A stretch of 64,000 nucleotides of DNA from Gavia stellata (Eukaryota; Chordata; Aves; Gaviiformes; Gaviidae): assembly GCF_030936135.1 (NCBI RefSeq), contig NC_082620.1:744001-808000 (forward strand), given 5' to 3'. The position numbers and the translations under genes are program-made. This document shows positions 37,792-64,000 of the stretch, piece after piece. The notes under the pieces are model-generated. The model was not told the origin of the DNA. It searched no databases and saw nothing but the letters and a program-made list of their open reading frames with translations. The first letter of the stretch is position 1, and each line of letters opens with the position of its first letter.

Positions 37792-40700
37792 ATGGCGCTG
37801 CCCGCGCTGCTGCCGGTGCTGCCGCTGCTGGCGCTGCTGGCGCGGGCGGCGACACCACCGGAGCCGGTACCGGGGCCGGTACCGGCCGACCCCCCGCTGC
37901 CGGCGCAGCCCCCGGATGCTCTGTTCGCCGCCGGCGCCGAGGCGTACGCTCGGGGCGACTGGCCCACCGTGGTGCTGCAGATGGAACGGGCGCTGCGGGC
38001 CCGGGCGGCCGTGCGCTCCCGCTTGGTACGATGTCGCCTGCGCTGCGCCAACGCCACGGCCGTACCGGCGGAGGGGGCCGAGCCCCAGCCCGAACCGGTG
38101 CTCCGCGACCTGCTCTTCTTCCGGGGGCTGCTGCGCCGCGCCGCCTGCCTGCGGGGCTGCGGGCCCGCCGCGCCCTCCCGGTACCGACTGAGCGACGAGC
38201 TGGACCGCGAGTTCAGCAAGCGCAGCCCCTACAACTACCTCCAGGTCGCTTATTTCAAGGTGCGGGACCGGCGGCGGGAGCGGGGAGGCGGCGGGGGGGG
38301 GGGGCGGCGGCGGCGGGACCGGCAGCGATCCCGGGAAGGGAAGGGGGGTGTCTCGGTGCGGCGGGATGCGGGATGGGGGGGATGCCCGGGGGGATCCCGG
38401 GGCGGGGGGGACCGAGAGAACGGGGCGGGGGCGATCCCGGGGAGGGGGGGGGGGGGCCGGGACCCGGGAGGGGGTCGGTTGGCCGCCCCGGCGGGGTGGG
38501 GGGTGTCGGACGGCGGCCCCGGGCCCTGCCCGCCCCTCCCCTGCCCCCCCCCCCCGCAGTGCCACGTCGGAGCTCGCCGGAGCCTCCCCCGTCACCGCCC
38601 TCCGCCCCGCTGCGGGACCCCCGTGATGCCCCGGGGACGGGGGTCCCCTCTGCACCCCCGGGGGGGGGGTCCGCGCCGTGGGGCGGGCGCTGTCTCACCC
38701 CCCGTCCCTCCCAGATGAACCGGCCGGCGCAGGCGGCGGCAGCGGCCCACACCTTCTTCGTGGCCAACCCCGGGCACCAGGAGATGAGGCAGAACCTGGA
38801 GTACTACCACGCCATGGCGGGGGTCCGCGAGGGTGACTTCACCGACCTGGAGGCCAAACCCCACATGGTGAGACCCCCCCCACCGCCTCCGCTTCGGGCA
38901 ACCCCTCCAAAACACCCGTCCGCTGCTGGGCCTGGGGTAGTCACACCACGGCTGGTGGCTCGGCAAAGCTCCCGAGATGCCACCTTGGTGCTGTGAGGTC
39001 CATCCCGTGGGGACAAGGCACCCCGGGTGCTCCGTCACGGGGAGCGGGGCGTTGAGCTCCCCCCCGTCATTTCTCATCCCTCTGCAGAGCGAGTTTCGGC
39101 TGGGTGTCCGGTTTTACACAGAGGAGCAGCCGGCCGCCGCCATCCTGCACCTGGAGAAGGCGCTGGAGGAGTATTTTGTGGCGGACGCCGAGTGCCGCGC
39201 GCTCTGCGAGGGACCCTACGACTACGAGGGCTACAACTACCTGGAGTACAACGCAGACCTTTTCCAGGCCATCACAGGTGAGAACCACGCGTGCTGTGTC
39301 CTGTATGAAGAGCTGGGGACAATCCTGGGGGGTGGTGGTCCCCAAAGACCTGGGGGGTGGTGGGTCCCCAAAGAGGGCAAACCCCACCCTAGGTTTTGCT
39401 AGGAGGAGCGTGGCCAGTAAGCGGCAGGAGGTGTTTGCCCACGCTCAGTGCTGGGGTTGATGCCCAGGAACCCTCCGCATTCCAGACAGACATGGAGAAA
39501 CAGGAAAGGGACCATCAGAGGGTCACCAAGACACAAGGGTGGGAGGCTGAGGATGGTCACTCCTTCCCCAGAAAGCAGCCCAGCCCTAGTCTCACAGAGG
39601 TGGGCGACCACCATCCTTGAGGGTTTCCACCACCGAAAAGCTGCCAACAGCCTTGCGGCGAGGAGGAGGTTGGCATGGAGACCCCCAAGGTCCTGTCTAC
39701 CACCCCTTGGGTGACCATGTGCAGTGACACCAGTGTTTTTTCCACCAGATCACTACATGCAGGTGCTAAGCTGCAAGCAGGGCTGTGTTACGGAGCTGGC
39801 CTCCCAGCCCGGCCGGGAGAAGCCCTTGGAGGATTTCCTGCCCTCGCACTTCAACTACCTGCAGTTTGCCTACTACAACAGTAAGCACCTCGTTGCCCCG
39901 TTCTCCGTTGGCCATTGGCACTGACATCGTGCTCTGCACTGGCCGTTCTTCACGGGCGGAAATCATAGACTCACAGGACGGTGTGGGTTGGGAAGGGACC
40001 TTCAAAGATCATCTAGTCCAACCCAAGATGCAGGGATGTTTTGCGCGAGACCACGTTGCTCAAAGCACCGTCCAACCTGACCTTGAACGCTTCCAGTGGT
40101 GGGGCATCCACCACTTCTCTGGGCAACCTGCTCCAGTGTTTCACCACCCTCATCATAAAAAAAAATCCTCCTTATGTCCCACCTAAACGTGCCCTCTTTC
40201 AGTTTAAGACCATTGTCCCTTGTCCTGTCACTACAAGCCTTGGTAAAAAGTCATCTCCATCTTTCTTGTAAGCCCCCTTTATATATGGAAAGGCTACAAG
40301 AAGGTCTCCCTGGAGCCTTCTCATCTTCAGGCTCAACAACCCCAGTCCTCATTGGAGAGGTGTTCCAGCCCTTGGATTGTTTTTGTGGTCCAACTCTGGA
40401 CCCACTCTAACAAGTCCATGTCCTTTTTGTGCTGTGAACCCCAAAGCTGGATGCAGTGCTCCAGGTGGGATCTCATGAAATAGAGGGGGAGCATCACCTC
40501 CGTTGACCTGCTGGCCACGCTTCTTGTGATATAGCCCAGGATACGCTTGGCTTTCTGGGCTGCAAGCGCACATTGCCAGCTCACATGGGATTTTTCGTCC
40601 ACCAGTACCCCAAAGTCCTTCTCCACGGGGCTGCTCTAAACCTATCCATTCCCCAGTCTTTACTGATACTGGTGGAGCACTGCCTACTTGACCTTCCTGA

Positions 40701-43700
40701 AGTTCATAGGATCATAGAATCGTTTAGGTTGGAAAAGACTAAGATCATGGAGTCCAACCATTAACCTAACGCTGCTAAGTCCACCACTAAACCGTGTTCC
40801 TAAGCACCTCATCCACATGTCTTTTAAAAACCTCCAGGGATGGTGACTCTACCACCTCCCTGGGCAGCCTGTTCAATGTCTGACAACCCTTTCAGTGAAG
40901 AAATTTTTCCTAATATCCAGCCTGAACCTCCCCTGGGACAACTTGAGGCCATTTCCTCTCCTTCTATCGCTAGTTACGTGGGAGAAGAGACCAACACCCA
41001 CCTCCCCACAACCCCCTTTCAGGCAGTTGTAGAGAGCAATGAGGTCTCCCCTCAGCCCCCTCTTCTCCAGACTGAACACCCCCAGCTCCCTCAGCCGCTC
41101 CTCATCAGACTTGTGCTCCAGACCCCTCATCAGCTTCATCGCCCTTCTCTGGACACGCTCCAGCACCTCAATGTCCTTCTTGGAGTGAGGAGCCCAAAAC
41201 TGAACACAGGATTCGAGGTGCAATTCGAAGTTCGCACAGGTCCGCTCCTCCAGCCTGAAATGTGCCACAGGAGAGCTGGGTCTTGCTGCGCCTGGTTGCA
41301 AGAACCCTCCATGTCACTTTAGATGCTCAGTTCCCCGGCATCTTCGCTTTCCAAGTGAAATAACAGCCTAGAGAAGTGTTTTCTTTTTCTCCTGCCAGCT
41401 ACCCGCCTCTTCCTCCAAACCACAGAGGCATCCTCCCCCTCCAGAACAGTTAGTTATAACCCAGGCAAATATACCCAATTTTGTTTTATTTTTTATTCAC
41501 CTCCTTAGAAAAAACTAAACTGTTTCTGTGCAAATTTCTCCAAAAGGACGGGAAAAAAAAATGAAGTCCAAGAAGACTGAAAGGCGTGAAAGTGGGTCAG
41601 GATGCTTAAGTGGCTGAAAATTGCAGGTTAGCTTAGAAGTGGTTGGGTCTTTCTGCCTGGAAATAGGTTTCAAGATGTTTTCCAAGTGAGAAAACTACCC
41701 AAGCAGTGGCCCTGATTTCTGGTGAGATGATTTCTGGAGGCAGGAGAGCGCCTCGGACTCTTAATTTGGCCTTTGTGGCAGCAGTTGTCTTTGCTCCAGG
41801 GTATCTGCCCTACTTGGGAGACCCTTTGGAGAACAAGGACTTTCTCTCTTGTTTCTCCTCCATATCCGTGTTTGCTCTGTCTCTGATGCTCTTGGACGTG
41901 CTATAACAGCCCCGTTTCTCTTTGCAGATGGGAATTACGAAAAAGCCATTGAATGCGCCAAAACCTATTTGCTCTTCTTCCCAAACGACGAGGTGATGAA
42001 CCAGAATTTGGCCTATTACACTGCTGTCCTGGGGGAAAACCTGGCAGGACCCATCCAACCCCGAGAGGTGAGCGACCAGCTGAGCTGAGCCATTGCAGGG
42101 ACATCTTCTCCCCTCCTTGGGGACCTTTGCAGAGGTTTGGGAATCTGCTTTGGATGGGTCTGCTCTGGTCCAGCCACCCTTCGGTGGCAAGGTGGAGGGG
42201 AATGGATGGATGCAAGACCCAACAAGCTGGAAAATAGCTGAGAGACTGAAAAACATCACTAACAAGATATCTGTGGCTAAGTGAAGGCTTGATGGCTTGC
42301 ACAAATGGACCAGCTCTTGTGGGAGAGGTTTGGGAGAGGCAGACGGACAGGCTTTTTAGGAGGGTCTAAGCCCACCTCTGCTGCAGACTTCTACAACTGA
42401 CGTGTAATTGCTTAAAAAGGGGAAGATTTAGCTTCAAACCAGCTGGATCTGGATGCACGGGTGCTGCCTGGGAGGTGGTAGGCAGGGATGGAGGTCTCTG
42501 CCCCATGTCAGGAGGAGCAGGGAAGGGAATCTGCTTCTAAAGAGCTTCCTGCAGGAGGGACGTGCCTGTGCCTCTGTCTCCCCCGTCCTCTCCCCAGGGC
42601 TCATCCACACGGGACAGGGAAGTTCATGCAGGATGGGGAAAGCCACTTGCTTCCCGGCTGCCAGAGGGACTGGGAAACCAGGGCTGCGGGTCTGGAGCAA
42701 GGACTGCGGGAATGATGTAAACCCTGCACCCTCCTGTCCTTGCTCAGGGTCTTTCCAGAGCCCTCGTGCCGTGCCCTCACCCCGTCCCTCTGCCCCTCGC
42801 CACAGGAGATCCAGGCATACCGCGAGCGAAGCCTGATGGAGAAGGAGCTGCTCTTCTTCAGTTACGACGTCTTCGGCATCCCCTTCGTGGACCCGGTGAG
42901 TGGTGCTGGACCAGGCTGGACACGGTGGCCAGGTGGAAAGGGGATGAGGTGTCTGCGTCCCAGCCAGATCCTCGTCCAGCTCCTGATGCGGTTGTTCTTC
43001 TGGCTGCAGGACACATGGACACCCGAAGAGGTGATACCGAAAAGGCTGCGAGAGAAACAAAAGTGAGTGCTCTCCCAAGCTGATGGCCAAGCCTACCCAA
43101 CGGGGGGACCGACGGGACGTACCCCTCTTCCTCCCTGGGATTTGGGCCAAGGACCATGGCCATGGAGCTGCTGCCAGGGGGGGTTTTTGGTGTTGGGGCT
43201 GGGAGAGGCTGCTGGAGGGCAGAACTTTGCTCCCCATCGGCCCTTGGGGTGATGGGGATGGCTAGGTCATCCCAAGCAGCCTGGGGTAAGGGATGCGTTG
43301 AGATGATTCTCTCCAGCCTTGGGCTTTGTCACCGGCCCCTGGAGACAACTTGTCCTGCCCTTGTCCTGGTGCCCCTCGTTGGCGACGCGGGGACTGTGGG
43401 GTGGTGGAGCTGATGGCTGCCACATGCCCAGGGTGGAGCGGGAGACGGCGGCGCGCATTTCAGAGGAGATCGGCAACCTCATGAAGGAGATCGAGACGCT
43501 GGTAGAGGAGAAGGCCAAGGAGTCTGCTGATATGAGCAAGTTCATCCGAGAAGGTGCAGAGGGCCGGGAGGGGAGGTGGGATGGGGACCTCCATGTTCCC
43601 TGCTGCCAGCTCACGGTCCTTCCACGTGGGTGGTGGCAGGACCACAGCTTCCCCCAGCGCTGTACCCCAGAGTTGGTGGCACCCATCCCTGTGCCCTCCT

Positions 43701-45751
43701 GATCCTGTTTGCACTACAGGTGGCCCCTTGGTGTACGAAGGAGCCAGTGTCACCATGAACTCCAAGACCCTGAACGGCTCCCAGCGCGTCGTGGTGGACG
43801 GAGTCCTTTCCGCTGAGGAGTGCCGGGAGCTGCAGAGACTCACAAACGTGAGCACAGGGACGGGAGGAATGGGCAGGGATGGGGCAGGCGATGCTGAAGG
43901 GTCCCATCCTGCGGCTCAGAAGTAACGCCGATTGGGTTTTGCAGGCAGCTGCCTCAGCCGGGGACGGCTATCGTGGGAAGACATCTCCCCACACCCCCAG
44001 CGAGACCTTCTATGGCGTGACTGTCCTCAAGGCCCTCAAGGTTAGGGTGCCTGTGGGGAGCGGGGAGAAACAGGCTGTGGGGACAAGGAGGGGGGGTTTG
44101 AAGGCAGGCAGCTGCCCGTGCTTGCCCAACCTGCCTGGGGCTGAGCCTGTGTCCTGTCCGTCCCCCACAGCTGGGCCAGGAGGGCAAGGTGCCCCTGCAG
44201 AGCGCCTACCTCTACTACAACGTGACGGAGAAGGTGCGACGCATGATGGAGTCCTACTTCCGCCTGGAGGTCCCGCTCCACTTCTCCTACTCCCACCTGG
44301 TGTGCCGCACGGCCATCGATGGTGAGCACGGCCTCAGAGGAGCACAACCCAAGGAGAAGCAAGTCTCCTTCAGCCTCTTATCCTGTCTGGGTCCCTTCCA
44401 ACAGCTGGGGTGGGCTGGTCTTGGACTTTCCCTTGGAGACCTCCTTGCTGCTCCCTAACCTGCTCCTTTTCCCAAAAGGGAGGTGTGGGGAGCTTGTCTC
44501 TAAGCCCGGTTTGGGAAGATGAGTAGCTCTGTTGGTTGCCTCCAGTGGGGCAGCTGGCTTCATGCCATACTGGATTTCAGCACCCGGAGGCATTTGGGAT
44601 TGGGTGCTGGGAGAGGCTGTGTCTGGAGGGCCCTGGAGATGCCATGGGACAAGTCAACGGAGGTTTGTGCCACCTGAATGGCCTCTCATGGTCCACGCTT
44701 CAGCGAGTGGAAGGGCTTTAGGCTACAGGTGACTTTCTTGTCACCTCCAAGCACATGGTGCTTGGGGACAGACCCCGGACCTGCAGGGACAAAGGGATTC
44801 TGACGCGCCAGGTCTTGTTCCACCCTAGAGAAACAAGAAGGCCGGAGTGACAACAGCCACGAGGTGCACGTGGACAACTGCATCCTCAACGCGGAGGCCC
44901 TGGTGTGTGTGAAGGAACCTCCAGCCTACACCTTCCGGGATTACAGGTACCAGTGGTGTCTATCAGCCAGAGCTTCCCCACCTGAGGGCACCGTGGCTCG
45001 GTGGCACCTGGGTCGGGAGGAGCAGGATGGGAGGACAACCCGAGCTGGGCTCTCCTGCCTCTGGCTCTTGCTGTGGTGTTGGGGGAGCTCCCAGTCGCTG
45101 GAGCTGTGGCCTGGGGTGATGGTTGTCACCTCCCCTTGTCCCCTGCTTCCTTTAGTGCCATCCTCTACCTCAACGGGGACTTTGAAGGAGGAGCTTTCTA
45201 CTTCACCGAGTTGGATGCCAAGACGGAGACCGTAAGTAGCTCAGCTCCTTGAGGATCCATGCGTGACCCCGACACCAAACCCAGCTCCTGCCTGCTGGCT
45301 CCGTCCCCTCTGCCACCGCAAGGGATGAATTTGGGCTGGGGGGGACCAACTCACCCCTTCGCCCGCTGGGTGCATCCTGACCGGGGTCTCCCATCCATCG
45401 CAGGCGGAGGTTCAGCCACAGTGTGGTCGTGCCGTGGGCTTTTCCTCCGGTTCAGAGAACCCCCACGGGGTGAAAGCCGTGACCAAGGGCCAACGCTGCG
45501 CCATCGCCCTCTGGTTCACCCTGGACCCTCGGCACAGCGAGAGGGTAAGCTCCCCACCCCCGGCAGCAGGTGGGTTTTTGGGGGGGGACAATGGCCATGC
45601 TTACCCCCGTGGGTCTGCCCCACAGGAGCGCGTGCAGGCGGACGACCTGGTGAAGATGCTTTTTGGCACGGAAGAGGGGGATTTGCTGCGGGAGCCAGAG
45701 CCGGAGCAGGAACCGCCGGCTGCTGTTGCGGTGGGGAAGGATGAGCTGTAA
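37792..45751 (+). CDS. P3H1: P3H1 (leprecan), collagen prolyl 3-hydroxylase 1, fifteen exons
   Basis: An ER enzyme that, with CRTAP and cyclophilin B, 3-hydroxylates specific prolines in fibrillar collagens and acts as a chaperone. Exons: 37792-38259, 38715-38867, 39088-39277, 39749-39880, 41928-42067, 42806-42895, 43010-43062, 43432-43553, 43720-43847, 43945-44040, 44171-44321, 44829-44946, 45156-45231, 45404-45544 and 45626-45751. They sum to 727 residues (human about 736) and all phases agree. Residues 1-21 form a signal peptide. The N-terminal half is the leprecan TPR-like region with cysteine motifs ([43 protein letters not shown]). The C-terminal half is the Fe(II)/2-oxoglutarate dioxygenase domain: HVD with His588 and Asp590, distal His660 in NPHGVKAV, and Arg670 for 2-oxoglutarate. 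The protein ends in the ER-retention signal KDEL. The acidic tail before KDEL is shorter than in human. Identity is certain. Confidence 0.97.
39959..41300 (-). mobile_element. Older CR1 LINE copy in P3H1 intron 4, split by a younger CR1
   Basis: Minus-oriented. The left part, 39959-40705, starts with the octamer tail and 3'-UTR (GGGACCTTCAAAGATCATCT) and encodes CR1 RT C-terminal segments on the minus strand, such as [20 protein letters not shown] and [16 protein letters not shown]. Its 5'-ward sequence stops at GAAGTTC (40699-40705) and resumes at GAAGTTC (41227-41233), going on as CGCACAGG then CTCCTCCAGCCTG, which is further CR1 sequence. The younger copy lies between the two. The outer 5' limit near 41300 is approximate. 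Confidence 0.85.
40706..41226 (-). mobile_element. Younger CR1 LINE inserted into the older CR1
   Basis: A minus-oriented, 5'-truncated copy with the octamer tail at 40706-40722. It encodes the CR1 RT end on the minus strand ([46 protein letters not shown]). It is flanked by a 7-bp direct repeat GAAGTTC (40699-40705 and 41227-41233) that looks like a target-site duplication. It resembles the CR1 at 7941-8520 closely. Confidence 0.88.
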
Positions 45752-47104: not shown

Positions 47105-48995
47105 GCCCCAAGACCCAAATCTCCCCCCCAGGACCCAAATACCCCCCACGCCCCAAATCTCCCCCCCAAGACCCAAATCTCCACCCCACCACGACCCAAA
47201 TCTTCCGCTCCGCAGACCCCAAATCTCCCCCCAAGGCCCCAAATCCCCACCTCAGACCCCCAATCTTAACCCCCCCAGACCCAAATCTCGCCCCCCTCTG
47301 ACCCAATTCTTCCCCCCAGGATCCAAATCTCCCCCCCCCAGTCCCCAAAATCCCCCTCAGACCTCAGATCTTCCCCCCCGAGGACCCAAATCTCCCTCCA
47401 AGGCCCCAAATCCCCCCCTTACACCCCAAATCTCGCCCCCAGGCCAGAAATCCCCCCCTCAGACCCCAAATCTCAACCCCCCAGGCCCCAAATCTCCCCT
47501 CCAGGCCCCAAATCCCCCCCTCAGACCCCAAATCTCCCCCCCAGACCCCAAATCTCATCCCCCCAGGCCCCAAATCTCTCCCCCAGACCCCAAATCTCAT
47601 CCCCCCAGGACCCAAATCTCCCCCTCAGACCCCAAATCTCATCCCCCCAGGACCCAAATCCCCCCCTCAGACCCCACATCTCAGCCCCCCAGGACCCAAG
47701 TCTCCCCCCCAGGCCACAACTCCCCCCCTCAGACCCCAAATCTCAACCCCCCAGGCCCCAAATCTCCCGCCCCTCCGACCCAATTCTCCCCCCCAGGATC
47801 CAAGTCTCCCCCCCCAGGCCCCAAATCTCCCCCCTCAGACCCCAAATCTTCCCCCCCCCCCAGGCCCCAAATCTCCCCCTCAGACCCCAAATCTCATCCC
47901 CCCGGGCCCCAAATCTCCCCCCCAGGCCCCAAATCTCAACCCCCCAGGCCCCAAATCTCCCGCCCCTCAGACCCAAATCTCCCCCCCAGGATCCAAGTCT
48001 CCCCCCTCAGACCCCAAATCTTCCCCCCCCAGGCCCCAAATCCCCCTCTCAGACCCCAAATCTTCCCCCCCCAGGCCCCAAATCTCCCCCCCTAGGACTC
48101 AAATCTCCCCCCCCGGGCCCCAAATCCCCCCCTCAGACCCAAAATCTCAACCCCCCAGGCCCCAAATCTCATGCCCCTCAGACCCAAATCTCCCCCCCAG
48201 TATCCAAGTCTCCCCCCCCAGGCCCCAAATCTCCCCCCTCAGACCCCAAATCTTCCCCCCCCCCCGGGCCCAAATCTCCTCCACAGGCCCCAAATCCCCC
48301 TCTCAGACCCCAAATCTTTCCCCCCAGGCCCCAAATCTCATCCCCCCAGGCCCCAAATCTCCCCCCCAGGCCCCAAATCTCTCCCCCAGGCCTCAAATCC
48401 CCCCCCTCAGACCCCAAATCTCATCCCCCCAGGCCCCAAATCTCATCCCCCCAGGCCCCAAATCTCCCCCTCAGACCCCAAATCTCAACCCCCCAGGCCC
48501 CAAATCTCCCCCTCAGACCCCACATCTCATCCCCCCAGGCCCCAAATCTCTCCCCCAGGCCTCAAATCCCCCCCTCAGACCCCAAATCTCAACCCCCCCA
48601 GGCCCCAAATCTCCCGCCCCTCAGACCCAAATTTCCCCCCCAGGATCCAAGTCTCCCCCCCCCAGGCCCCAAATCTCCCCCCTCAGACCCCAAATCTTCC
48701 CCCCCCAGGCCCCAAATCTCCCCCCCAGGATCCAAGTCTCCCCCCCCCAGGCCCCAAATCTCCCCTCTCAGACCCCAAATCTTTCCCCCCCAGGCCCCAA
48801 ATCTCCCCCCCTAGGACCCAAATCTCCCCCCCCCGGGCCCCAAATCCCCCCCTCAGACCCCAAATCTTCCCCCCCCAGGCCCCAAATCTCCCCCCTCAGA
48901 CCCCAAATCTTTCCCCCCCAGGCCCCAAATCTCCCCCCCCGAGGTCCCAAATCCCCCCCTCAGACCCCAAACCTCCTCCCCCCGGCCCCAAATCA
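47105..48995. repeat. C-rich minisatellite (about 1.9 kb) upstream of CLDN19
   Basis: A long array built from variants of CCCCAGGCCCCAAATCTCC and CCCTCAGACCCCAAATCT, about 19-20 bp each, often alternating as a dimer of about 40 bp. The C runs are 4-9 bases long, so the minus strand is a dense series of G runs with strong quadruplex potential. The long open frames over it (Pro/Ser-rich on plus, Gly/Trp-rich on minus) are repeat artefacts. Confidence 0.97.
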
Positions 48996-49132
48996 CCCCC
49001 CCCACCCCACTTCCCCCCCGGACCCAATCCCCCCCCCCCCCCGATCCCTCCGCATCCCCCACAGCCCCCCCTCCCCCTCAGGGCCCACCTCGGCCTTTTC
49101 CCTCCTCCCTGCACGCTCCGCGCCAGCTCCGC

Positions 49133-49270
49133 GGGGGCGTGGCTGGGGTGGCGGGGGCGTGGCCGGGGGCGTGGCCGGGAGGGGCGGGGGCGTGGCGAGG
49201 GCGTGGCCGGGAGGGATGGGGGCGTGGCCGGGGGCGTGGCCGGGAGGAGCGGGGGCGTGGCCGCGGCGGC
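49133..49270 (+). promoter_or_regulatory. CLDN19: CLDN19 proximal promoter with an array of GGGGCGTGGC boxes
   Basis: Roughly nine to ten copies of GGGGGCGTGGC(C/G)GGG follow one another just upstream of the CLDN19 start codon at 49317. The core GGGGCGTGGC fits the GT/GC box bound by SP and KLF factors. There is no TATA box. Function is inferred from position and motif only. Confidence 0.6.
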
Positions 49271-49316
49271 GGGCCGTGGCGGGGAGCGCGGCGCGGGCAG
49301 GCGCGGGGCGGCGGCG

Positions 49317-52045
49317 ATGGGCGGCGGGGCGCGGGAGCTGGCCGGGTACCTGGCGGCGCTGGGCGGGTGGGTGGCAGCGCTGGCGGCGGCCGTGCTGCCT
49401 CAGTGGAGGCAGAGCTCGTACGCGGGGGACGCCATCATCACGGCCGTGGGGCTTCACGAGGGGCTGTGGATGAGCTGCGCCGCCCAGAGCACCGGGCAGG
49501 TCCAGTGCCGCCTCCACGACTCGCTCTTCTCCCTCGACGGTGGGTACGGGGGGGCCAGGGCCCCGTGGGGATGAGCCCCGCTTCCTTCCTCCGTGGGTCT
49601 GACCTCCCCTAAGTGTCTGGGCTGCCCTTGCCCCTTGCGAGTCTGAGTCCCTCTATGGGTTTGACCCCCCCCGTATGGGTCTGAGCCCCTCTGTGGGTTT
49701 GACCCCCCTCCCTGATATGGGTCTGATCCCCTCTGTGGGTTTGAACCCCCCTTGTATGGATCTGAGCCCCTCTGAGGCTTTGAACCCCCCCCGCGTATGG
49801 GTCTGAGCCCCTCTGTGGGTTTGAACCCCCCCCCTGTATGGGTCTGATCCCCTCTTATGGGTTTGAACCTCCCCCATATGGGTCTGAGCCCCTCTTATGG
49901 GTTTGACCCCTCCCATATGGGTCTAAGCCCCTTTTATGGGTTTGACCCCCTCCCTGATATGGGTCTGAGCCCCTCTGTGGGTTTGAACCCCCCTTGTATG
50001 GATCTGAGCCCCTCTGAGGCTTTGAACCCCCCCCGCGTATGGGTCTGAGCCCCTCTGTGGGTTTGAACCCCCCCCCATATGGGTCTGAGCCCCTCTTATG
50101 GGTTTGACCCCTCCCATATGGGTTTAAGCCCCTTTTATGGGTTTGACCCCCTCCCTGATATGGGTCTGAGCCCCTCTGTGGGTTTGAACCGCACCCCCCC
50201 TCCAACAGGTCTGTACCCTGTCCATGTCTGAGTGCCCCCGTGGGTCTGAGCTCCCCTGGCCCCTCCAGTTGTCTGAGTCCTCGGCAGGTCTGAGCCCTTC
50301 TCACACAGCCCCCCAGCCATGGGGCTGAGCCCCTCTAATGCGCCTGACCCCCCTCGGAAAGGTCTGAGCCCCCTTTACCCCTCCACTGATCTGAGCCACA
50401 ATGTGGGTCCAAGCCTCCCCCCTCCACCCCATGCGTCTGAGCCCCTCTTGGCCTCCAACACCCCCACCCCGGCTCTGAGCCCCCCTTGTCCCCATCGGTT
50501 TGAGCCCCTTTGTGTGCCTGAGACACCCCCCCCACCCCTGTGAGTTTGAGCTCCAGGGTGGGCTTTCGGAGACCAACAGTGCCCCATGGGGACATCGCAA
50601 CCCTGCTGGGGCTGTGCATCACCCCTGTGGCATTTGGGGACCGTGGTCCCGCTGTGGGCAAGGCGTTTCCCAGCCCAGGAAATCACGGCGAGGATGAGTG
50701 TGGCCGGGAGGAAGGTCAGGGAAGGCATCGGGAGCGGTGAACCCAGTTGAGCTGAGGTCTCCCCACCAGCCGCGTGGGGAAGGGGTGACACTGGAGCCAC
50801 GCAGCGAGGACAGGGTTAAGGACAGGTTCATCCCCTCGTGGGACGAGGTGACCTTGCTTTCCCAGACCGGCTGTGGCCGAAAGCACACGCTGGCGAGCGG
50901 CTTTTCTTCCCCCCCCCCCCCCCCCCCCCCGCTGCCTTGCAGTTCACATCCAGACCTCCCGGGCTCTCATGGTGATTTCTCTCCTCCTGGGCTTCTTCGG
51001 CATCATTGTGAGCGTGGTGGGCATGAAATGCACCAAAGTTGGCGAAGAGGATCCCGTTACCAAAAGCCGCATCGCTGTTGCTGGAGGTGTCCTCTTTGTC
51101 CTCTCCGGTAAGGCAGCTCCAGCCTTTGCACCGCTCTGATACAGAAGACCTCCAACACCTTTTAAAAGCTGTTTGATGGAGGAAGGGGAGAGGTTTGGTG
51201 ACGGGCTGGGTGTTGCTGGTGTTCAACGCTTGGTGTCTAGTTGAAGTTGGCCCTGCTCGTTGCAGGGGGGTTGGACTAGATGACCTCTAAAGGTCTCTTC
51301 CAACCCCAACCCTCTTGTGATTCTATGGCCAGGTCTGTGCACGTTGGCCGCCGTGTCCTTGTATGCCACACAGGTGACCTACGAGTTCTTCGAAAAGAGC
51401 ACCGTCCCCATCAACGCCAGGTAAGAGCCCGGCTCAGGGCGTGCTCTTTACCTGAATCCCAGCTTGTCCCTGCGCTTCCCATAGGACCACCTCTTGCCGG
51501 TTTTGACTACATGTGGGGTCATAGGCAGATGTGCCACACGGTGTGGGACCTATGCCACCCCACAGCTGCCATATCGCAGAAGGTCTCTCCCCAATGCCAA
51601 AGCTTTAGTCGGTACCACCGCCGACTTTGCACTGGGACAGAGTAAGAGCGCTCACATGGCGTTTCGGCCCAAGGGAGGATTAAAGCACTGGGAAACCTGG
51701 TAGCTGGATCCGGCCAACGGGAAAAATGGGGATGGCCAGAGAGGAGAAGACCCAACATCTGCCTCGACGCCGCCCGTAGCCTCATCAGGGCTTCGAGCAT
51801 CCTTGTGTCCACGGGGTCTTCATCTCAATTTGCACCTCTGCCTTTTCTGCCCCCCCTCCCTGATGCTCCCCTCTCTCTCTCGCCACAGGTACGAACTTGG
51901 CTCTGCTCTCTTCATCGGCTGGGGGGCCGCCAGCCTCACCATGCTGGGGGGCTCCCTCCTGTGCTGCTCCTGCCCCGCCAAGGAGCGGCGAGGACAGCAG
52001 TACTACCGGCAGTCGCAGCCTTCGACGGCTCGGGAGTACGTCTGA
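49317..52045 (+). CDS. CLDN19: CLDN19, claudin-19, tight-junction protein (four exons)
   Basis: A four-span tight-junction protein; in mammals it works in kidney thick ascending limb, peripheral myelin and retinal epithelium and pairs with claudin-16. Exons 49317-49539, 50943-51107, 51333-51420 and 51889-52045 give 210 residues, the same size range as human claudin-19. The claudin signature is complete: Trp30, GLW (49-51), Cys54 and Cys64 in the first loop. The stretch [14 protein letters not shown] and STGQVQC match claudin-19 specifically, as does GMKCTKVG after the second helix. The protein ends AREYV, the PDZ-binding tail of the long claudin-19 isoform. The N-terminus is more Gly/Ala-rich than in human. 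Exon 2 has a 21-C run in its acceptor tract, and exon 3 is preceded at five bases by a CR1 3' end. A weak poly(A) signal ATTAAA lies at 52765-52770. Confidence 0.96.
49655..50200. repeat. Minisatellite with higher-order structure in CLDN19 intron 1
   Basis: The basic unit of about 36 bp is a TATGGGTCTGAGCCCCTCTG half followed by TGGGTTTGAACCCCCC. A larger block beginning CCTGATATGGGTCTGA recurs at 49711, 49953 and 50154, so groups of units have been copied together at spacings of 242 and 201 bp. Weaker, diverged copies (GTCTGAGCCCC) go on to about 50530. Confidence 0.93.
51246..51327 (+). mobile_element. CR1 LINE 3' end abutting CLDN19 exon 3
   Basis: The sequence GGGGTTGGACTAGATGACCT, then CTTCCAACCCCAACCCT and the terminal octamer ATTCTATG (51320-51327), is a standard CR1 3' terminus in plus orientation. 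Exon 3 starts at 51333, so only GCCAG separates the element from the exon. Confidence 0.9.
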
Positions 52046-53204
52046 TCCCTAACCCTGCCCTCCTGCCGCCCAGCGCCTCCCTCCCCTCCCAAAAACCGGC
52101 AAGACCCCGGCGCTCCCACCCCCGTGGTCCCGGATGCCCCATGAGACCTTTTTCTCCTCATCATATTCCAGGTTTCAGCACCGTTTGCAGCGCCATCCTC
52201 TAAAATAGGGGGGTTTGGGGTCATAGCTCCCGTATCCATCCTTGTCAGACTCCCCCCGAGCCGGGCAGGTTGGCCCCTCCGGGGTGGCCGGGACCGTGGG
52301 TGGCTGGACCGCGTCCGTCTGTCAGGCGGATGCTGCGGAGCGACGGCAGCAGCGGGGCGATGCCGGTCCCCGCGGGGGTGTGCTGCCCAGAGGTGCTTTG
52401 TGCTGTGACCCCCCCCCGCCCCGGCATCCTGCAGCCCTGTTTTTGGAAGCAAGCGAGGAGCAAAGCCGGCGCTCGGTTTTCCCGGGATGAAGCTGCTGCC
52501 CACCTCCATCAGACCCAGCCCAACCCGGGGCTCGAGCATCTCCGCGCCCCGCTTTTGACAGAGGGATGCTTTCGGGGTGCGAGCGTTCCCCTGCCTCATT
52601 GCTACCCAAAAGCAACATTTTTAAAATTATTATTAATTCTTGATTCGAGCCCAGTCGCTGGTGCTCCAGCTGAGCTCTGCCAGCTAAAATCTGCCCTGGG
52701 CTCGTTTCTCACCAGGCACAAGTATGTGGCCTCGTTAAGCAGAAGAAGAACTGGCGCTGGTCAAATTAAAGCAGGCAAAACGGGGCTTTGAACACAAAGC
52801 AGTGGTTTGTTTTTATTTTTGGTGCCCAACGCAGCTATTTCAGGTAGCAGATGGACAGACCCATGAATTTTGACGCCTCCCCGCTGTGTCCAAATCCCTC
52901 TTCCCCCGACAGGATCCCCTGGAGCGGGCGGTGAAGTCTTCAAATGCCGACGTGCTAATTGCCTCCACCTCCTTGTACCTCCTCTCGACCGCTACTAACT
53001 GCTCTGCAAACGCCGCAGCTCCAATTTCATCCGTAAATCCCCCAAAAACCCTCCGTATCTCCATCCGTCCATCCATGTTGCATGTGCTGTGCTGGCTAAC
53101 CTGCAGGAAAAAACAGTGGAAATGATCCAAAGAGCTTGATTATATATTTTTTATTATTTTTTTTTTAAATCCCTATTAGCTGAAGTAGCTGATTTTTTTT
53201 TTTT

Positions 53205-53345
53205 TATTTTGCTCTATTTTATTTCCTTTTACTCTATTATTTTACTCTATTTTATTTTATTTTGCTCTATCTTATTTTCTTTTACTCTATTTTATTTCAT
53301 GTTACTCTATTTTATTTTATACTCTTATCTTATATATACTCTTAT
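53205..53345. repeat. T-rich imperfect tandem repeat
   Basis: Repeated TTTTATTTTACTCTA-like units over about 140 bp, with variants containing GCTCTA and ACTCTT. It looks like an expanded simple sequence. Confidence 0.8.
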
Positions 53346-55994
53346 TTTATGCCCATGCACTGCTTTGGGTCCCGGTCCGTGCGGGAGGGGAAGCAATGCT
53401 ATTTTTGCCCTGGGGGGGGTGATTTCTCTCTGTCCCGCATGACTAACAGCCCTCTTTCTCTTTTAAATTGCAGACCCCCTGTAAAAATGTCTTCTTCACC
53501 CATCAGGGGAGAGCAGTGCTTATAGTCTGTCTTCACCCATCAGGTGCTTGGTTGGCTGAACCCAACTTACGGGGTTCCCTTCCAAAAACACACAGCAAAA
53601 GCTACTGCAGTGCGGATTGAAAAGGAAACTCGTGCTTTAAAAACCCCAAAAAATCACTCAAAAAGGCGTTTTTATATCAAGAGTACAGTGTTGTGTAGAA
53701 GAATGTTTTTATTCTTTTAATACAAAATTGCATTAACTTTTCTATGGGATGCATGGCCGTGGGAATGGGACCGGTTGGGATTTTTCAACGCATTTTTTTT
53801 TGCTGATTGTTTGTACTAAAAATTGTGACTCAATGGTATTAAAATATTTCCGATCATGGGCATCTTTCTAAAATCGTCTCTTTGTTCTCCCCGTTTCCAA
53901 ATCTGAACCAGTCCCCTGCCAGGGACTCCTTTCCTGGCTCAAAGCAACTTCTGCAGCATGGTCCAGGCAGGAGATTCTCCCCCATGCCGAACGGTTTTTG
54001 CCCTCCTGGGCAGGTGCTGGCCAAAGATCTTGAGTCTTTTGCCATGTGTTGCTCTCGAAGGAGGGGATGTGGCTTAAGAATTGCTTAATTTAAGGCTAAA
54101 CCCATGGAAAAGCCCCGATGTCCCGTGCAGCCCGGTTGCACCCAGCGTCTCCTGCTTGCAGCCGCCACTTGGTACCTCCGCAGGGCTCTTCCCAAGGCTG
54201 AAACGCCACCAGCATCCTCCTCTCGTTGCCCCTCTTACGGACCCTCAAAACTGGGCTCTCCCTTATTTTCTCCCATTTTCCAGGAATTCAGGGCTGGCTT
54301 CTGCCTAACCGGGCACTTTCCTAATTTAAACTGATTTTTGCTTTCCCCGCGGAGGGGCAGGACCCCCCTGTGATGGTTTTCCTTGGGGGATGATGCTTTC
54401 CATCCAGGTTTTTGCACAGCCAGTGTCTTAGCTCAGCATCCTCGTCCTGCCCGTGGCACCTGATCCACAAGTACACCCCATCCCCTCTCCGAAAGACAGG
54501 ATTTGGGGTCATTGGTGGCTCCCGTGACATCTCCACGGGTCACCCGAGGACTCCCTGGGAATGGACGTGCAGGCTGGAAGCACATCAAAGCCAGGGGGTG
54601 GGAAAATAGCTGAGCAGCGATAACGTGTTCGGGGGTATAAAGGCCCCCACTGTCCTCTGGACAATCCCTCGTGTGTTTTGCACAGGGCAAAGCGGGATAA
54701 AATATGGGAACGGGACGCCGGGATCACTGCGGTGCGTGGGATCCGCCTCCACCCACATTGCGTCCAGGCTAAAACACGGATCCCCCCCCCCCCCAACACA
54801 CTTCTTTTATTTAATAAAACCGGTATAAGGAACAATATTTAGGTTTCTGGTCATACCTCTCGCTTGCTTCCAAGGCCCTGTGAAATAATACTCGTTTTTG
54901 AATAGGCAGAAATAAGGGAAGAGGGAAAATGACTCCCCCAGACGCCAAGATCGCAGCAAATCTCACCAAATTGCCACGGCACTGAAATTCCACATAAATA
55001 ACGGAGTGGGATAAAAAAAAATCGCCTTTTTTTCTTAAAGAAAAATAAATTATTAAAATTAAAATTCCGTTTCAGCGCCCTTTGTTATATTTAGCACGAA
55101 TATGTTTCTGCGGCTTCGTTGCCCACGGCCGGGGGCCCGCGGCCGGTCCACACGCAGAAGGGCTTTTCTCATGCCTCTGAGCCATGAATGGCTTAATTCA
55201 ACGATGTTTTTATTCATTTTTATTGTTTTTATTCATTTTTATTTGTTGGCCTGCCCCACCAGCATCTACAGAGTCCTCTCCACCTCTTTGAGATGGTCCC
55301 ATCAAAGAAAACATCTTTATTTCTTTTTTTTTTCCGTGCCGCAGCAGCGTTCCCCTGCGCAACCTGTGCTAAACCACAAAGATTCAGGGCTCCTATCAGC
55401 ACCATTTTTTTTAACACATGGGTTTTACAAACCTAGTGGGACACAAGCTCTCATCTTCACCTTCGTTAACCAGGGAAATGATCTTTATTATTCATTGATC
55501 GATAGATCTACCCCTCTGCCTGGATCTTTTCAACCCTCCAAAAGGTTTCAATTGAGAATCGACAAGGCAGATCAGTTTGATGTATAATAAACTGACTGTT
55601 TAGAGTAAAAAGTAAAAATAAACCTATTTTATCGGTGTCGCCAAGGCACGCACCTGCAGTTTAGTGCTGCGTGGGGTCACACCAAAATTTCACGTGCCAC
55701 GGATGTCCAAGTACCAGAAATTCCCGAGCTGCAAATGTTGGAAAATGAAGGTGCGCAAACCCTCCTGGATGTTTTCAGCACTAATTCGCCGCTACATGCC
55801 CAAGCCTTGGACCTGCCATGTGCCAAAATCCCGGGAAAACAGGATAACCCAAAATAAAGCCACAGCAATCGCATACGTCAAGCGCCCGGGTGCCTCTGCG
55901 GGGCTGAAGCTCGAGGATTTGCCGAGACCCTGGTGCGCTGCCAAAATCCCCGCAGCTCCATGCTGCGGAGGATTAACTGGAGGGGAAAAAACCA

Positions 55995-56081
55995 ACCCAA
56001 AACAAAGCGAAAAAACCCAAAACAAAGTGAAAAAACCCAAAACAAAGCGCAAAAACCCAAAACAAAGCGCAAAAACCCAAA
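55995..56081. repeat. 20-bp tandem repeat, about 4.4 copies
   Basis: The unit CCCAAAACAAAGCGAAAAAA recurs at 20-bp spacing with A/C and C/T variants. It lies in the intergenic stretch and is likely a young local expansion. Confidence 0.9.
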
Positions 56082-58397
56082 AGTGCATCTCAAATATAAC
56101 CCATGAAATGGAAACAGGGACGTGTTTTCGGGGTCTAGGAGAGGAGGGTGTAGTGATGGCTGAGAGCCGCGGGGCACAGCTGATCCCAGGGGTGCTCGGA
56201 GGATGCCGCAACACGATGCTTTGCGAGAAAGCGAGAGCAAAAGCGCTGTTTTTCCCACTAGTAGGGGATCAGGGAGCGAACCTGGAGTGGTCAGGGCAGC
56301 TCCAAGCGCCAGGCAGCCGGGGTGCCACTTCCCAGGGTCACCGAAACCTCCTTGGGGGCTGACCGGACACGTTATCTGAGCCATAACCACTGCAGTGGTT
56401 ATCACTTGGTTTCCACTTAATGGAAAAAAAGAAAAAGGGTCTTTATTACTGGCTGCATGCCTGGCCGAAGGGTTTTACTTCTCCTCCTCGCATTTTAGCT
56501 TCTATCTCCAGCCACCTCCATCCCTCCGACTCTCTTGCACCAGTCCTGGGGACCCAACATATCTTGGGTCACTCACTCCTAGGCGGTAATTAAAAGGTCT
56601 AATTAAAAAATGTGGGCTATTCGCCTGGGACACAGAGTCCCCCACCTGGGGAGTGTTCCCAGCGGGTTCCCCACAGGTTTCCCCACGTGATATTTTTTTG
56701 GGGAGGCTCCATTTCCAACCTATTACCGTTTTAACCACGGGGATGCCCATCACGCTGTGGAGCGCAAAGCCCAGCTGACGTGCCTTGGAAAAACCTTAAA
56801 TAGCCCAGCAGAGGCTCCGGCAGGTGCTGCATTTCCCCGACTCCATCGGGTGGGTCAGGATCGCATCCCGTCGGCACTTGAAAGCCTTCGAGACCCACGA
56901 CCCCAGCCCCAGTCAGCGGCGACAAAGAGCTTTTGCCATCGTCCCACCCCAGCAAGGATGAGCCTGCGGTGAAGGTAACGCTCCCCGCCCCGAGCCCCTT
57001 TTTATTGCTAACAGGGTTCAGAGCTGGTTTTTGCCAGGGTTAAGGATTTCTTTCTTCTCTTTTTTTTTTTCTTGCTCATATAACTCAAATGGCTGAACAG
57101 ATTTTCTTCAAAGGCTCCAAAACAGCCAGGGTCTAGTGAAAAAAACCAACATTACGGAGAATTAGCTCAGAAGGGAGTCTGGGAAATTAAAAAATACTGT
57201 AAATTGGGGTCTGAGAGGCTGCCTGTTAATAACATATGCTCTCAGAGTGAAGCTGATGGAAATGCTCAAAGAGACGGGGTGAGTCGTACCTCTGCTCCCA
57301 GCAACGTCCCTAGAGAGGATGTCGTGGGAGACGTTGCACACTGGCTGTGGGAACCGTGACCCTCCTTCCCACCTCTGCCCCACGGGGAAGCCTGCGCCAT
57401 GCCAGGGCGGGCAGCATCTGGCTGAAGGTCACAAACTCCACCATAGTGAAGAGTCATCACCCTACGATAATTAACCCCTGCAGCTCAGAGACCCATCCGG
57501 TCTCATTAATTAGCCCACTCATGGGAACCCCTCTGCCCAAAGGGCTGTTGCAGCGGTTGCAACTTCAGGCACTAAACTATTTAGCATCTTGAGTTGCAAA
57601 ACAGCAAAGCGGGATTCACGGCCAGGCTATGGAGATACGATGTCCTCTGCTCCATACCTTGGGCACAGCTCCCCTCTCTGCAAAGTCCCTCCATCTCTGG
57701 CAAGAAAGGAAAAGAGATGGTCCCATCCCCTCTGGCCTTTGGAAAGCCTTGGCAGCACCCAAGGGCACCCACATCAAGCGCCAGCAGCCGTCACCCACCT
57801 CCGTAATGGGAGATGCTTTCTTTGGGCTTGCCGCTTGAGATTAGGACATCTCCATGGGACACTTGCTTGTGCTCCAGCCTGGATGTTTCAACACTTCATT
57901 GCTTTTCTTCAAAAAAAAAAGGCAAGAAAAGGCAGGTGATCCTCCCACCGAACCACATGGATGTGGGGATGGAAGCATCACGAAAATCTCAGGGTATCAG
58001 GAGCCACATGCTCAGATCACAGGCTTTGACAACGATAGTTGTTTGACATTTTCCAGCAGCTCTTGATTCCCAAAAGGCAAGTGCTAGTGGTTGGCAACGT
58101 CAGATGATGTATTGGGAAGAGAGGACGTCTAGAGAGCAACCCCGTATGGGTATGTCTCCACTGTGAAATTAATGTATCTCTGAAGGCCCTGTCTACATGC
58201 AAACCTGGTGGCCCAACCTCAGCTGAGGGTATTGAGCATTTTGGCAGCACTGAGGACCATGAGATGGGCCCCAGATGACTCATAGGGATCCAGCGGCCAC
58301 CCTGGCCCAGGTGCCACTTTGTCCTTGGTGGATCAGGCACCTGGGAAGTGGCCAGAGCAGAGGTGGCGGACATCTCTGTGCCCTTGCAGGTGACCCC

Positions 58398-61150
58398 ATG
58401 AGCGCAGCCTTGCAGATGACGGCGTTTGGTCTTGCTCTTCTCTCAACCGTCTTCCTGCTCCTTGCCACATGCACTGACTGCTGGATGGTGAACGCTGATG
58501 ACAGCTTGGAGGTGAGCAGAGAAACCATCTTCAAGGTTAGCAGCTGGAATCAAGGTGGGCGCCTTGACATCCGTGGGGTTGCTCCACGTCACCCTGGACT
58601 TGGAAAGGGGATATGGTGGGACAAACCCACTGCTTTCTGTGTGAGTTGGAGGATTAGAGAGAGAGAGAAATGCTGGAGCAGGAGGAGACAGAGAGCAGGG
58701 TATGGGTGGGGAGTCACCAGAACGTGTCCAGCTGTGGTGGTGAGAGCCTGAAGATCTGCCTTGCAGGGCTGGGATACCCCTGGGGAGCTGGGGTGCTTTT
58801 TGGTGCTTTTTGCTTGAATTTCTTTCTCCTGCTTCCAGGTAAGTCACAAATGCCGGGGGCTTTGGAGGGAGTGTGTCACCAACATGCAGGATGGGGTCAG
58901 GACCTGTGACCAGTATGACTCCATTTTGGCAGACCATCCAGGTAAGCTGGCATGGCCTGGAGGCATTTTTTAAGTTCCCAGCTGTTTTCCCTCTTCCCTT
59001 TTCGAGAAGATGATCCTCGTTGCAAAGGGCTGACCTTCATCCGCTAGCAATGCAGGCCCAGGGTTTCTCTTGGTCTCCTGCCCCATCAGCACAGCCTGGA
59101 CAGCAACCCATGGTTCAGCCAGATCTGCCATGGGGTCACCAAGCAGGAGAGAGGCCACGAAGCTGTGCCACCTCACAACAAAGGTGTTTTGGCACACAGA
59201 GCCCAGGCACAGCTCTTACCCCCCAGTGCATGGTGGGATTCGCAACCCCTTGATGTTGCATGCAGGGCTGAGGACCATTCCCACTGGCCAAGGACTTGCG
59301 TCCTCAGCTCATGGACAGTCATATTGTGGTATGGAGACTTCTCCTGGCCTGCACAGGGCACATCAGGCCCTGCACAGAAGAACCCTTGTGTAGGGTGATG
59401 ACATGGGACAGCACAGATTCAGGCAGCGGAGAAGGGAACAAGAAGTCAGCATAGAGTAAGTGGGGCTGCTGTGCTGCTCTGGAGGGAGCTTTGTAGGGAG
59501 AAGTCACGTTGCACACAGCTGGTGATGTGACCCATGCCAGTTCTTCTATTTTTCATCGGTACGTTGACATTTGCTGTTCAAAACACCGGCTACACAACTT
59601 GGAGGAAAAACCAGACAGTCTGGACAGCAGCGTCTTCTGCCCAAGCCCGGGGAAGAAGGTCTTGAGTAGGTGACCACATCCCAGGTGCTGATTGGTGCAC
59701 CTTAAGTTGTTTGGTTTCTTGAGCTGGTCTAATAACGGGCTTATTAAGTCCTGTTGCAAGGTTTCAGATGAGCCTGGTGAGCTCCTTGCCTACGGCACAC
59801 GGCAGGCATGGCGTTGGTGGCTCTCAGTGCGGACATCTCCTACGGACATGCCCACTGGTGAGCTGGATGACTCTAGCAGGGACACAGGTAGCGATCTGGA
59901 GTGGGGAGACCAGTTCCTCTGACCACTCCTCAGTCCCCTTTCCAGTTTTTTTTCCTTCCCTGCCCAGTGAAGATCGTGGTGACGCGGACCCTGCTGATCA
60001 CAGCGGACCTTCTGGCCGGCCTGGCTTTGGCTACATTGCTCCTTGGGCTTGACTGCATCAAGTTCCTCAAGGAAGATCCTCGTGTCAAACTGAAGATGTG
60101 CTACGGGGCCGGTGTCATCCTCAGCATCGGGAGTGCGTGGCTGGGAAAGCTCAAGGGGCAGATGGACCTCGTGTCCCACGGGGAGTGGGGGGGATGCAGA
60201 GAGCTAGGGACACCCCCTCAGAGGGGTCTTGGGGAGCATGGGGGGGTTGGATGGTTCTCTCTTAACCAGCCCCATTCCTCCTAGGCATCCTGGGTCTTGT
60301 GGGCTCCGTGTGGTATGCAGTGGATGTCTACGTGGAGAGGGCCACGCTGGTGTCGCACAATATATTCCTGGGAGTCCACTATGACTTCGGGTGGTCGTGC
60401 TGGCTGGGGATGGCTGGCTCGACGGGCTGCTTCGCGGCATCCGTCCTGCTGACCTGCTGCCTCTATGCCTGCGCAGGTCAGTCTGCCCTGTCCCACCCCA
60501 TCCCACCTCCAGTAGCTTTTTGCCCTGCAAGGATGTATGTGGGGTGAAGGAGCAGCTCAGAGGGTGCAGGCGCTTCTCGCAGGGTCCAGCCAAATCAAGG
60601 GGAACCCTTCGTGTCCGACCTGTGCACCTTGGCGGGGGAGGCTGGGTCATGCCAGGCAGGACTGGGCTGAGTGAGGATCCCATAAGCCCCGTAAAGGCAC
60701 GGAGGAGGGGTAGAAATGCTCCATCTACATCTGTGGGACCTCGAGGTCCTGGTAAAGGTGTGTTGATGTCTATCCAAAGCAGTGGCCGTACTGGAGCTGT
60801 GTCACTGTGACCAGCCAAAGCCTGAGCCGGTGGCCACAGGGATGTGCAGGCGAAAATCTGACCGTCCCACCACCGGGGACGTGGGACGGGTGATGCCTCG
60901 CCAGACATCATCCCCAGCCCTGGTCCCACTGGGTGGAAGTCGACCCCACAGCGCTGGCTGTCCGGGTTCATTTCTCCTGCCGTGTCCCCAGGCTGTGGCA
61001 CCCCTCGACTCCCCCTGCTATTGCCGGCCATGACACAACCCCAGCTCTTTCCTGGCAGACCCCAGCACCCGCCGGCAACCCCAGAGGTCTCCCCAGCCCC
61101 GGGGCCAAACGGCCACCAGCAAGATGTACGCCATGGACTCCCGCGTGTGA
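58398..61150 (+). CDS. Claudin-16-like tight-junction protein (five exons)
   Basis: A complete claudin closest to claudin-16 (paracellin-1), which forms a cation-selective paracellular pore for Mg2+ and Ca2+ in the mammalian thick ascending limb. Exons 58398-58511, 58839-58941, 59968-60132, 60285-60476 and 61059-61150 give 221 residues; borders are GT/AG and phases agree. The claudin signature is Trp29, GLW (45-47), Cys50 and Cys61. Claudin-16-specific stretches are [48 protein letters not shown] and [20 protein letters not shown]. The C-terminus KMYAMDSRV parallels human KMYAVDTRV, a PDZ-binding end. The acidic residues of the first loop are kept; GLWREC replaces human GLWWEC. The start ATG matches the shorter mammalian start; an acceptor-like TTGCAG at 58384-58389 suggests an upstream noncoding exon. 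It could be the CLDN16 orthologue or an extra paralogue, so I give no symbol. Confidence 0.93.
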
Positions 61151-61213: not shown

Positions 61214-61219
61214 ATTAAA
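61214..61219 (+). terminator. Poly(A) signal of the claudin-16-like gene
   Basis: ATTAAA lies 64 bp after the stop codon in CCCATTAAAGCACCG, followed by a GT-rich stretch. The 3'-UTR would be very short, under 100 bp. Confidence 0.7.
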
Positions 61220-63324: not shown

Positions 63325-63705
63325 GTAATTCTTTAAGACCTTTATTAACAGATGCTTGCAGTTTGACTTGAAAAAATCAGGTGTATATTTCATACAAATT
63401 AAAAATGAGGTTCTTAAAAATCTCAACTTGACCAGATATGAAACAATTTAAAAACCTTTAAAGGTATATTGAGAAAAAACAGGTTTTTAAAAAACGTGTT
63501 TATCGTTTCCAAAAGGAGACTTCTTTAGGTAAAAATAATAAAAACCCCATGCTGCATAGATAATGCAGATAGTTCTAGTAATCTGGTCAACAGCAAAAAG
63601 CAAGCACTTAAGGTCTTCAGTTCCAATTCTTTTGTTCATTTCTTATTGCTGGAATTTCATTTTCTTTTCTTCTTCATTTCTTAAGTCTTTTCTTTGATGA
63701 CTAAA
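63325..63705 (-). other. YBX1: YBX1 terminal exon (3'-UTR only)
   Basis: YB-1 is a cold-shock-domain protein that binds DNA and RNA. This exon lies after an acceptor (TTTTTCAG) on the minus strand. It matches what I remember of the vertebrate YBX1 3'-UTR nearly base for base: ATGAAATTCCAGCAATAAG, GAACTATCTGCATTATCTAT, GCAGCATGGGGTTTTTATTA, TTGTTTCATATCTGGTCAAG and GTTAATAAAGGTCTTAAA. The poly(A) signal AATAAA is at 63346-63341. In mammals the stop codon sits in the preceding exon, so this exon should be noncoding even though a 20-codon frame is open at its start. The coding exons lie to the right of the window. Position and strand next to CLDN19 match human. The 3' cleavage point is approximate. 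Confidence 0.92.
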
Positions 63706-64000
63706 CTGAAAAAGAGGAGAAAACAAAAAAAGGATGATCAGACAGGTGCCAGGGGCTTGTACAAGTGTTCGGTCTACCAAGACTCACCCGCAAGTCACAA
63801 ATTCTCGGTGAGCTACCTTTCACGCACACGCAGAAAAAACCCCACCAGCCACAGCTCTAGTGAGCGCACTGCACTCCACCAGACCAGCAGCCCCCTTTCA
63901 GTGACCAAACCTGCCACCTTCCACGCCAAACAAACGCGGAGGACTCCCGAAGGAAAAGACACGGAATTTAAGCACAAAAGGAATCCCGCCTACACCTCTC
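63706..64000 (-). other. YBX1: Part of the last YBX1 intron
   Basis: Intron sequence running to the window edge. The preceding YBX1 exon (which would carry the stop codon) is not present here. Confidence 0.7.

Follow-up and report, generated by a model that had tools for sequence, protein, structure and literature searches.

The claudin-16-like gene that lies beside CLDN19 in Gavia stellata raises the question of whether it is the bird CLDN16 itself, moved next to its partner, or a second gene of the same family. We analyzed a window of 64,000 nucleotides (contig NC_082620.1, positions 744,001 to 808,000, forward strand), to which all coordinates refer.

An intact claudin-16-like gene lies downstream of CLDN19

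The initial annotation described CLDN19 and an intact claudin-16-like gene in tandem, about 6.3 kb apart on the same strand. Both genes were recovered in this arrangement, with 6,352 bp between the CLDN19 stop and the claudin-16-like ATG on one shared strand. The features of the locus are as follows.

39088..45751, + strand: P3H1, partial; exon at about 39.1-39.3 kb, C-terminal KDEL and stop at 45737-45751
49317..52045, + strand: CLDN19; four coding exons (49317-49539, 50943-51107, 51333-51420, 51889-52045), 210 aa
58390..58397, + strand: splice-acceptor-like site, gtgcccttgcag/GTGACCCC-ATG, directly before the claudin-16-like start codon, read from the sequence
58398..61150, + strand: claudin-16-like gene; five coding exons, 221 aa
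58398..58511, + strand: claudin-16-like coding exon 1, MSAALQ... to ...ADDSLE
58839..58941, + strand: claudin-16-like coding exon 2, encoding the first extracellular loop and bearing the diagnostic residues
59968..60132, + strand: claudin-16-like coding exon 3
60285..60476, + strand: claudin-16-like coding exon 4
61059..61150, + strand: claudin-16-like coding exon 5, with the C-terminal PDZ-type tail SRV, then stop
61214..61219, + strand: ATTAAA, possible poly(A) signal 64 bp past the claudin-16-like stop, read directly
63340..64000, - strand: right window edge, which from its resemblance we take to be probable YBX1 3′ UTR

The CLDN19 model has GT/AG introns and no internal stops. Its top solved-structure match is mouse claudin-19 (3x29, E 3.9e-78; runner-up claudin-4, 1.4e-46), and the Pfam match also supports the identification. 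Upstream, the P3H1 exon matches prolyl 3-hydroxylase 1 (8k0e, E 6.8e-30), and the assignment is completed by a leprecan TPR Pfam match and the KDEL-stop. In the claudin-16-like gene every intron is GT/AG and the reading frame is open throughout, up to a protein end reading ...KMYAMDSRV; with all exons open, a pseudogene is ruled out. The acceptor-like site before its start codon suggests that the gene may also have a 5′ non-coding exon.

Several other elements were noted in the window. A C-rich tandem repeat of about 1.9 kb (47106-49004; period about 20, also 42 and 85) lies upstream of CLDN19, a period-33 GC-rich tandem repeat (CGGGGGCGTGGCCGGGAGGGGCGGGGGCGTGGC, GC-box-like) occupies 49132-49284, immediately 5′ of the CLDN19 start codon, and a further tandem array (periods 81, 201 and 242) is found in CLDN19 intron 1 at 49641-50190. 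Minus-strand exons at 6700-10300 are CDC42-like, one of them being assigned to the Ras family by Pfam (E 1.7e-5); we presume that they belong to CDC42, whose position next to P3H1 would be unlike the human order as we take it to be. At 28-29.5 kb the GC content peaks at about 0.8, possibly marking the promoter of this CDC42-like gene. Open frames such as 8106-8531 (- strand) and those around 40828-41200 resemble fragments of reverse-transcriptase-type repeat elements, presumably CR1-like.

The protein belongs to the claudin-16 family

The claudin-16-like protein clears both Pfam claudin cut-offs (PF00822, 50.8 bits against 26.7; PF13903, 43.3 bits against 29.1) and carries the W-GLW-C-C motif of the first loop (DCW...C). 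Its orthologue in Phalacrocorax carbo (94% identity, 100% query cover, E 3.7e-136) is predicted to have four transmembrane helices, and the structure model of this orthologue finds mouse claudin-15 as its top solved fold (E 1e-3, TM 0.52/0.64), with a mean pLDDT of 69.7, a usable helix bundle and most of the first loop below 50. Because the first loop is predicted at low confidence, the loop changes described below are not placed on a pore model. In a tree that included three outgroup rows only, 56 CLDN16-type rows split from CLDN19, CLDN3 and CLDN15 at 100/100. A plasmid collection yielded no match, a result with no bearing on a bird gene.

CLDN16-type genes form two clades, both present in birds

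Three homologue searches, from which the best 120 of 249, 253 and 242 matches were taken, gave 196 distinct proteins; 55 of these and the window protein made up the 56 tree rows, with three outgroups added in the rooted tree. We refer to canonical CLDN16 as clade A and to the claudin-16-like proteins, including that of the window, as clade B. In the unrooted tree, clade B (26 rows, lamprey and window gene included) and clade A (24 rows) were each set apart at 100/98, and six chondrichthyan rows formed a third group on the A side (100/96). Both clades held when the outgroups were added (B 99/97, A 100/98). The root then landed among the shark rows, a position that we do not trust because the outgroup branches are very long. 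Profiles built from both groups scored 102 of the 196 proteins closer to A and 94 closer to B.

The window gene groups with six other bird claudin-16-like rows at 100/98, in a clade that also contains crocodilians, turtles, squamates, frogs, sturgeon, eels, bony-tongues and the elephant shark. No mammalian protein fell in clade B among the matches listed: all 36, identified as mammalian, like the sauropsids, from their record names, were closer to A by at least 87 bits, in searches where a mammalian clade B gene of low conservation could hide outside the best 120 matches of each. The record listings show both paralogues, on contigs that differ in length, in the goose Anser cygnoides (8.7 and 27.3 Mb), the lizards Hemicordylus capensis and Eublepharis macularius, the frog Mixophyes fleayi and the elephant shark Callorhinchus milii. 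Clade A CLDN16 is found in Anser, Coturnix, Cuculus and other birds.

These results bear on the two readings offered by the initial annotation, one of which was that the partner genes CLDN16 and CLDN19 share a locus in this lineage. That the window gene is the bird CLDN16, relocated beside CLDN19, would fit the plain "claudin-16" name of some bird entries (P0001, P0006, P0007) and the single CLDN16 mentioned in the available parts of the chicken papers. Yet a clade A CLDN16 exists in birds as a gene of its own; its Anser version shares 61% identity with the window gene and 78% with gorilla CLDN16; and the window gene falls outside the clade of mammalian and bird CLDN16 at 100/98. Its neighbouring claudin is CLDN19, whereas adjacency to CLDN1 would mark a CLDN16 orthologue. 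With both genes present within single species, the relocation is refuted, and we give it practically no credence. The concern that a tree might place the gene outside the CLDN16 clade thus proved correct as to the CLDN16-orthologue clade and mistaken as to the CLDN16 family (A and B), within which the gene lies.

An assembly misjoin, also envisaged at the outset, could have put a CLDN16-type gene next to CLDN19, since the adjacency in the window is known from one assembly and the C-rich repeat at 47.1-49.0 kb is of a kind prone to assembly failure; that repeat, however, lies upstream of CLDN19 and not between the two genes, and the window contains no gap letters. Against a misjoin stands also a gene model of Vidua macroura (P0195, "claudin-19 isoform X2"; cluster of five member sequences), which runs through CLDN19 to the equivalent of the end of exon 3 in the window and continues into the claudin-16-like protein. 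Whether a transcript or a prediction artefact, this fusion means that the two genes adjoin on one strand there, and a misjoin is thereby made very improbable. An in-frame fusion of the Vidua type is ruled out in the window itself, where joining CLDN19 exon 3 to the acceptor at 58390..58397 is out of frame and gives an immediate stop after exon 3.

The duplication predates crown jawed vertebrates

The other reading of the initial annotation, that birds carry a second claudin-16 paralogue, stood as to the paralogue; its restriction to birds did not, as both trees and approximately unbiased (AU) tests point to a much wider lineage. The AU tests rejected a duplication confined to birds (p 1.5e-122) or to sauropsids (p 8.4e-84), as well as one confined to chondrichthyans, with all chondrichthyan proteins held together (p 1.8e-4); the groups were chosen after the first tree had been seen, so that these p values are generous. 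Of the two elephant shark copies, P0065 (10.2 Mb contig) falls in clade B and P0185 (20.3 Mb contig) in the chondrichthyan group. Given the placement of these copies and the AU rejections, the A/B split is, as judged from the protein sequences, older than crown jawed vertebrates. Callorhinchus_B forms a long branch in both trees, and the seven A-side chondrichthyan records (six elasmobranch, one elephant shark) prefer A modestly, by 5.8 to 33 bits. The lamprey protein branches between A and B and is nearly tied in profile scores (-7.4 bits), so that the split cannot be tied to a particular round of duplication.

We consider it probable that the window gene is a second ancient CLDN16 paralogue that arose through the early vertebrate genome duplications and is not the orthologue of human CLDN16. 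These duplications are the likeliest origin of clades A and B, a view that leans on the human gene order, which we take to be P3H2, CLDN1 and CLDN16 on 3q28 and YBX1, CLDN19 and P3H1 on 1p34. According to this model, an ancestral block in which a P3H gene lay together with claudin genes of CLDN1/7/19 and CLDN16 type would have been copied in the early vertebrate genome duplications, one copy giving rise to P3H2-CLDN1-CLDN16 and the other to P3H1-CLDN19-claudin-16-like. The order P3H1-CLDN19-claudin-16-like observed in the window corresponds to one side of this proposed block. The second claudin-16 would then have been lost in mammals, to judge from the best 120 matches of each search.

The same two clades could also have come from a tandem or segmental duplication that was earlier than, or independent of, the genome duplications, with one copy either moving next to CLDN19 or persisting there and differential losses later. 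The tree gives the age of the split and not its mechanism, the placement of the lamprey and of the root is ambiguous, and human CLDN1 and CLDN16 are, as we understand it, divergent, whereas CLDN19 and the claudin-16-like gene share a strand in the window. Block duplication, on the other hand, predicts at no extra cost the match between neighbours, with P3H1 here and, presumably, P3H2 by human CLDN1-CLDN16, and we regard a separate tandem or segmental event as unlikely.

Clade B has changed residues in the first extracellular loop

To compare residues by clade we used 24 A and 25 B rows of the tree. The positions D104, D105, E119, D126 and E140 of human CLDN16, which we take to be important loop acids, are without exception occupied by acids in the window gene (D34, D35, E49, D56 and D70). 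Among positions that we assume to be affected in human disease, G191, A209, F232 and G233 are unchanged in the window gene and L151 is likewise Leu; the site of L145 is Ile in all 25 B rows. The site of human E133, corresponding to E63 in window numbering, is one of several near-fixed differences between the clades, being Gln in 24 of 25 B rows and acidic in 23 of 24 A rows. In the alignment, this site, the second residue past the loop cysteine, lies opposite an acid of claudin-15.

The GLW motif could be read in 182 of the 196 proteins and the loop charge in 138. The residue following GLW is Trp in all 94 A proteins and in all 10 non-sauropsid B proteins, and Arg in all 78 sauropsid B proteins. 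The mean net charge of the loop is -6.7 in clade A (n=71, -9 to -5) and -4.1 in clade B (n=67, -6 to -3), with overlapping ranges. As the window protein has a charge of -4 and the charge is -5 or -6 in each of the ten B proteins from outside the sauropsids, the drop in negative charge is mostly sauropsid. At the C terminus, where the window protein ends in SRV, the commonest tail is TRV in clade A (83/102) and SRV in clade B (51/94), many of the B proteins without SRV being partial or alternative models.

An in-frame insert of 8-25 residues right after ADDSLE, in the first extracellular loop, was seen in 13 of 77 readable clade B proteins, all from species whose names mark them as birds (passerines, two parrots, a woodpecker and a shag). 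The shag insert matches the translation of the start of intron 1 in the window (claudin-16-like region 58398-58580) and so continues past the exon 1 donor, and a second in-frame GT occurs at 58536 in this intron. The insert could be either a splice variant or a gene-prediction artefact; odd lengths at the same stretch occur in 3 of 84 clade A proteins.

Published expression data and the two clades

The gene itself is already known, as databases carry it as "claudin-16-like"; what is noteworthy is how old it is, that it adjoins CLDN19 and how its loop has changed. No literature on a second claudin-16 lineage was found among the titles and abstracts listed, which came from a collection with few subscription journals. 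Avian work on mineral handling, in the parts of the papers available, borrows "CLDN16" from mammals and measures one gene. Between two time-points of shell formation, "CLDN16" changes in the chicken shell gland (validation-table values +5.378 and +3.212; PMC6347800), and a hen strain given low phosphorus has less of it in the kidney at week 19 (PMC11812262). The accession used for chicken CLDN16 in PMC6347800 and PMC12009728 is XM_426702. Read in one frame, the shell-gland primer given in PMC6347800 yields TLLIAG; the peptide LLIAGL is present in 9 of the 102 A proteins and in none of the 94 B proteins. Because the primer peptide is confined to clade A among the fetched proteins, we infer that XM_426702 belongs to clade A.

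For clade B, the sole report found in the literature, as far as the texts were available, concerns eel larvae, where "Claudin-16-like isoform X1" shows a fold change of -7.9 between non-viable and viable larvae (PMC8227761); the clade B eel protein P0070 goes by the same name, and the match is by name only. Expression of a bird clade B gene was found in none of the accessible texts, and protein or electrophysiology data on clade B in none of the literature searched. If birds have two claudin-16 genes, one of them adjoining CLDN19, the avian CLDN16-CLDN19 system of kidney and shell gland may be half-measured. Clade B is in addition a candidate gene loss in mammals, and the two clades, as sister claudins that differ at a few fixed loop sites, provide natural material for finding the residues that set cation selectivity.

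A possible second partner for CLDN19

According to a review, claudin-16 and claudin-19 interact physically, and their co-transfection yields a highly permeable junction; the selectivity of claudin-2 depends on Asp65 (both PMC4214347, available in part). The claudin-16-like gene may be co-regulated with CLDN19, as the initial annotation proposed, and the two proteins may pair. As a tentative proposal, to which we attach somewhat less than even confidence, the window gene would encode a four-helix tight-junction claudin with a PDZ-binding tail, which would join strands and could form, together with CLDN19, a paracellular pathway for cations. This pathway would pass cations less selectively than that of CLDN16 and CLDN19, since an acid of the pore loop is gone (E63Q) and sauropsids have acquired a base there (W48R).

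The same changes could also be read differently. Claudin-14 has been described as a modulator or barrier for claudin-16, and the clade B claudin could conceivably be such a modulator or barrier instead of a cation pore, or have no role with CLDN19 at all. The less negative loop of clade B and the Arg after GLW in every sauropsid sequence read would agree with this; the five acids attributed to CLDN16, all acidic in the window protein, and the retained PDZ-type tail speak against it, and we hold a modulator or barrier to be plausible, if short of probable. A broader and rather doubtful scenario is that non-mammalian vertebrates keep a second claudin-16 which, with the adjoining CLDN19, makes up an ancestral two-gene unit for the paracellular transport of divalent cations, the sauropsid pore having been retuned by W48R atop an older E63Q. 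Mammals would have lost this gene, leaving CLDN16 and CLDN19 on different chromosomes, and the Vidua fusion would be read-through from shared control.

Returning to the cation-pathway proposal, the locus can be compared with the CLDN16-CLDN19 channel of the mammalian thick ascending limb. Here too CLDN19 has a claudin-16-type candidate partner, which in this locus is encoded by the adjacent gene; the partner in the mammalian channel is CLDN16, whereas here it would be the paralogue of CLDN16. Compared with CLDN16 (paracellin-1) of clade A, the window protein belongs to the same family clade, with 61% (Anser) and 64% (gorilla) identity, and both have a PDZ-type C-terminal tail (SRV in the window protein, TRV in CLDN16) and acids at the five loop sites. 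It differs in reading C-D-Q-Y where clade A CLDN16 mostly has C-D-E/D-Y and, together with other sauropsid clade B proteins, in the W48R change from the Trp of clade A. Unlike clade A CLDN16, the gene is a separate ancient paralogue adjoining CLDN19 and is absent from the 36 mammalian records among the matches listed. Database entries called "claudin-16-like" (e.g., Gallus XP_024998463.1, P0030) are orthologues of the window gene that were named by similarity, in listings that mention neither an ancient second lineage nor a CLDN19 neighbourhood.
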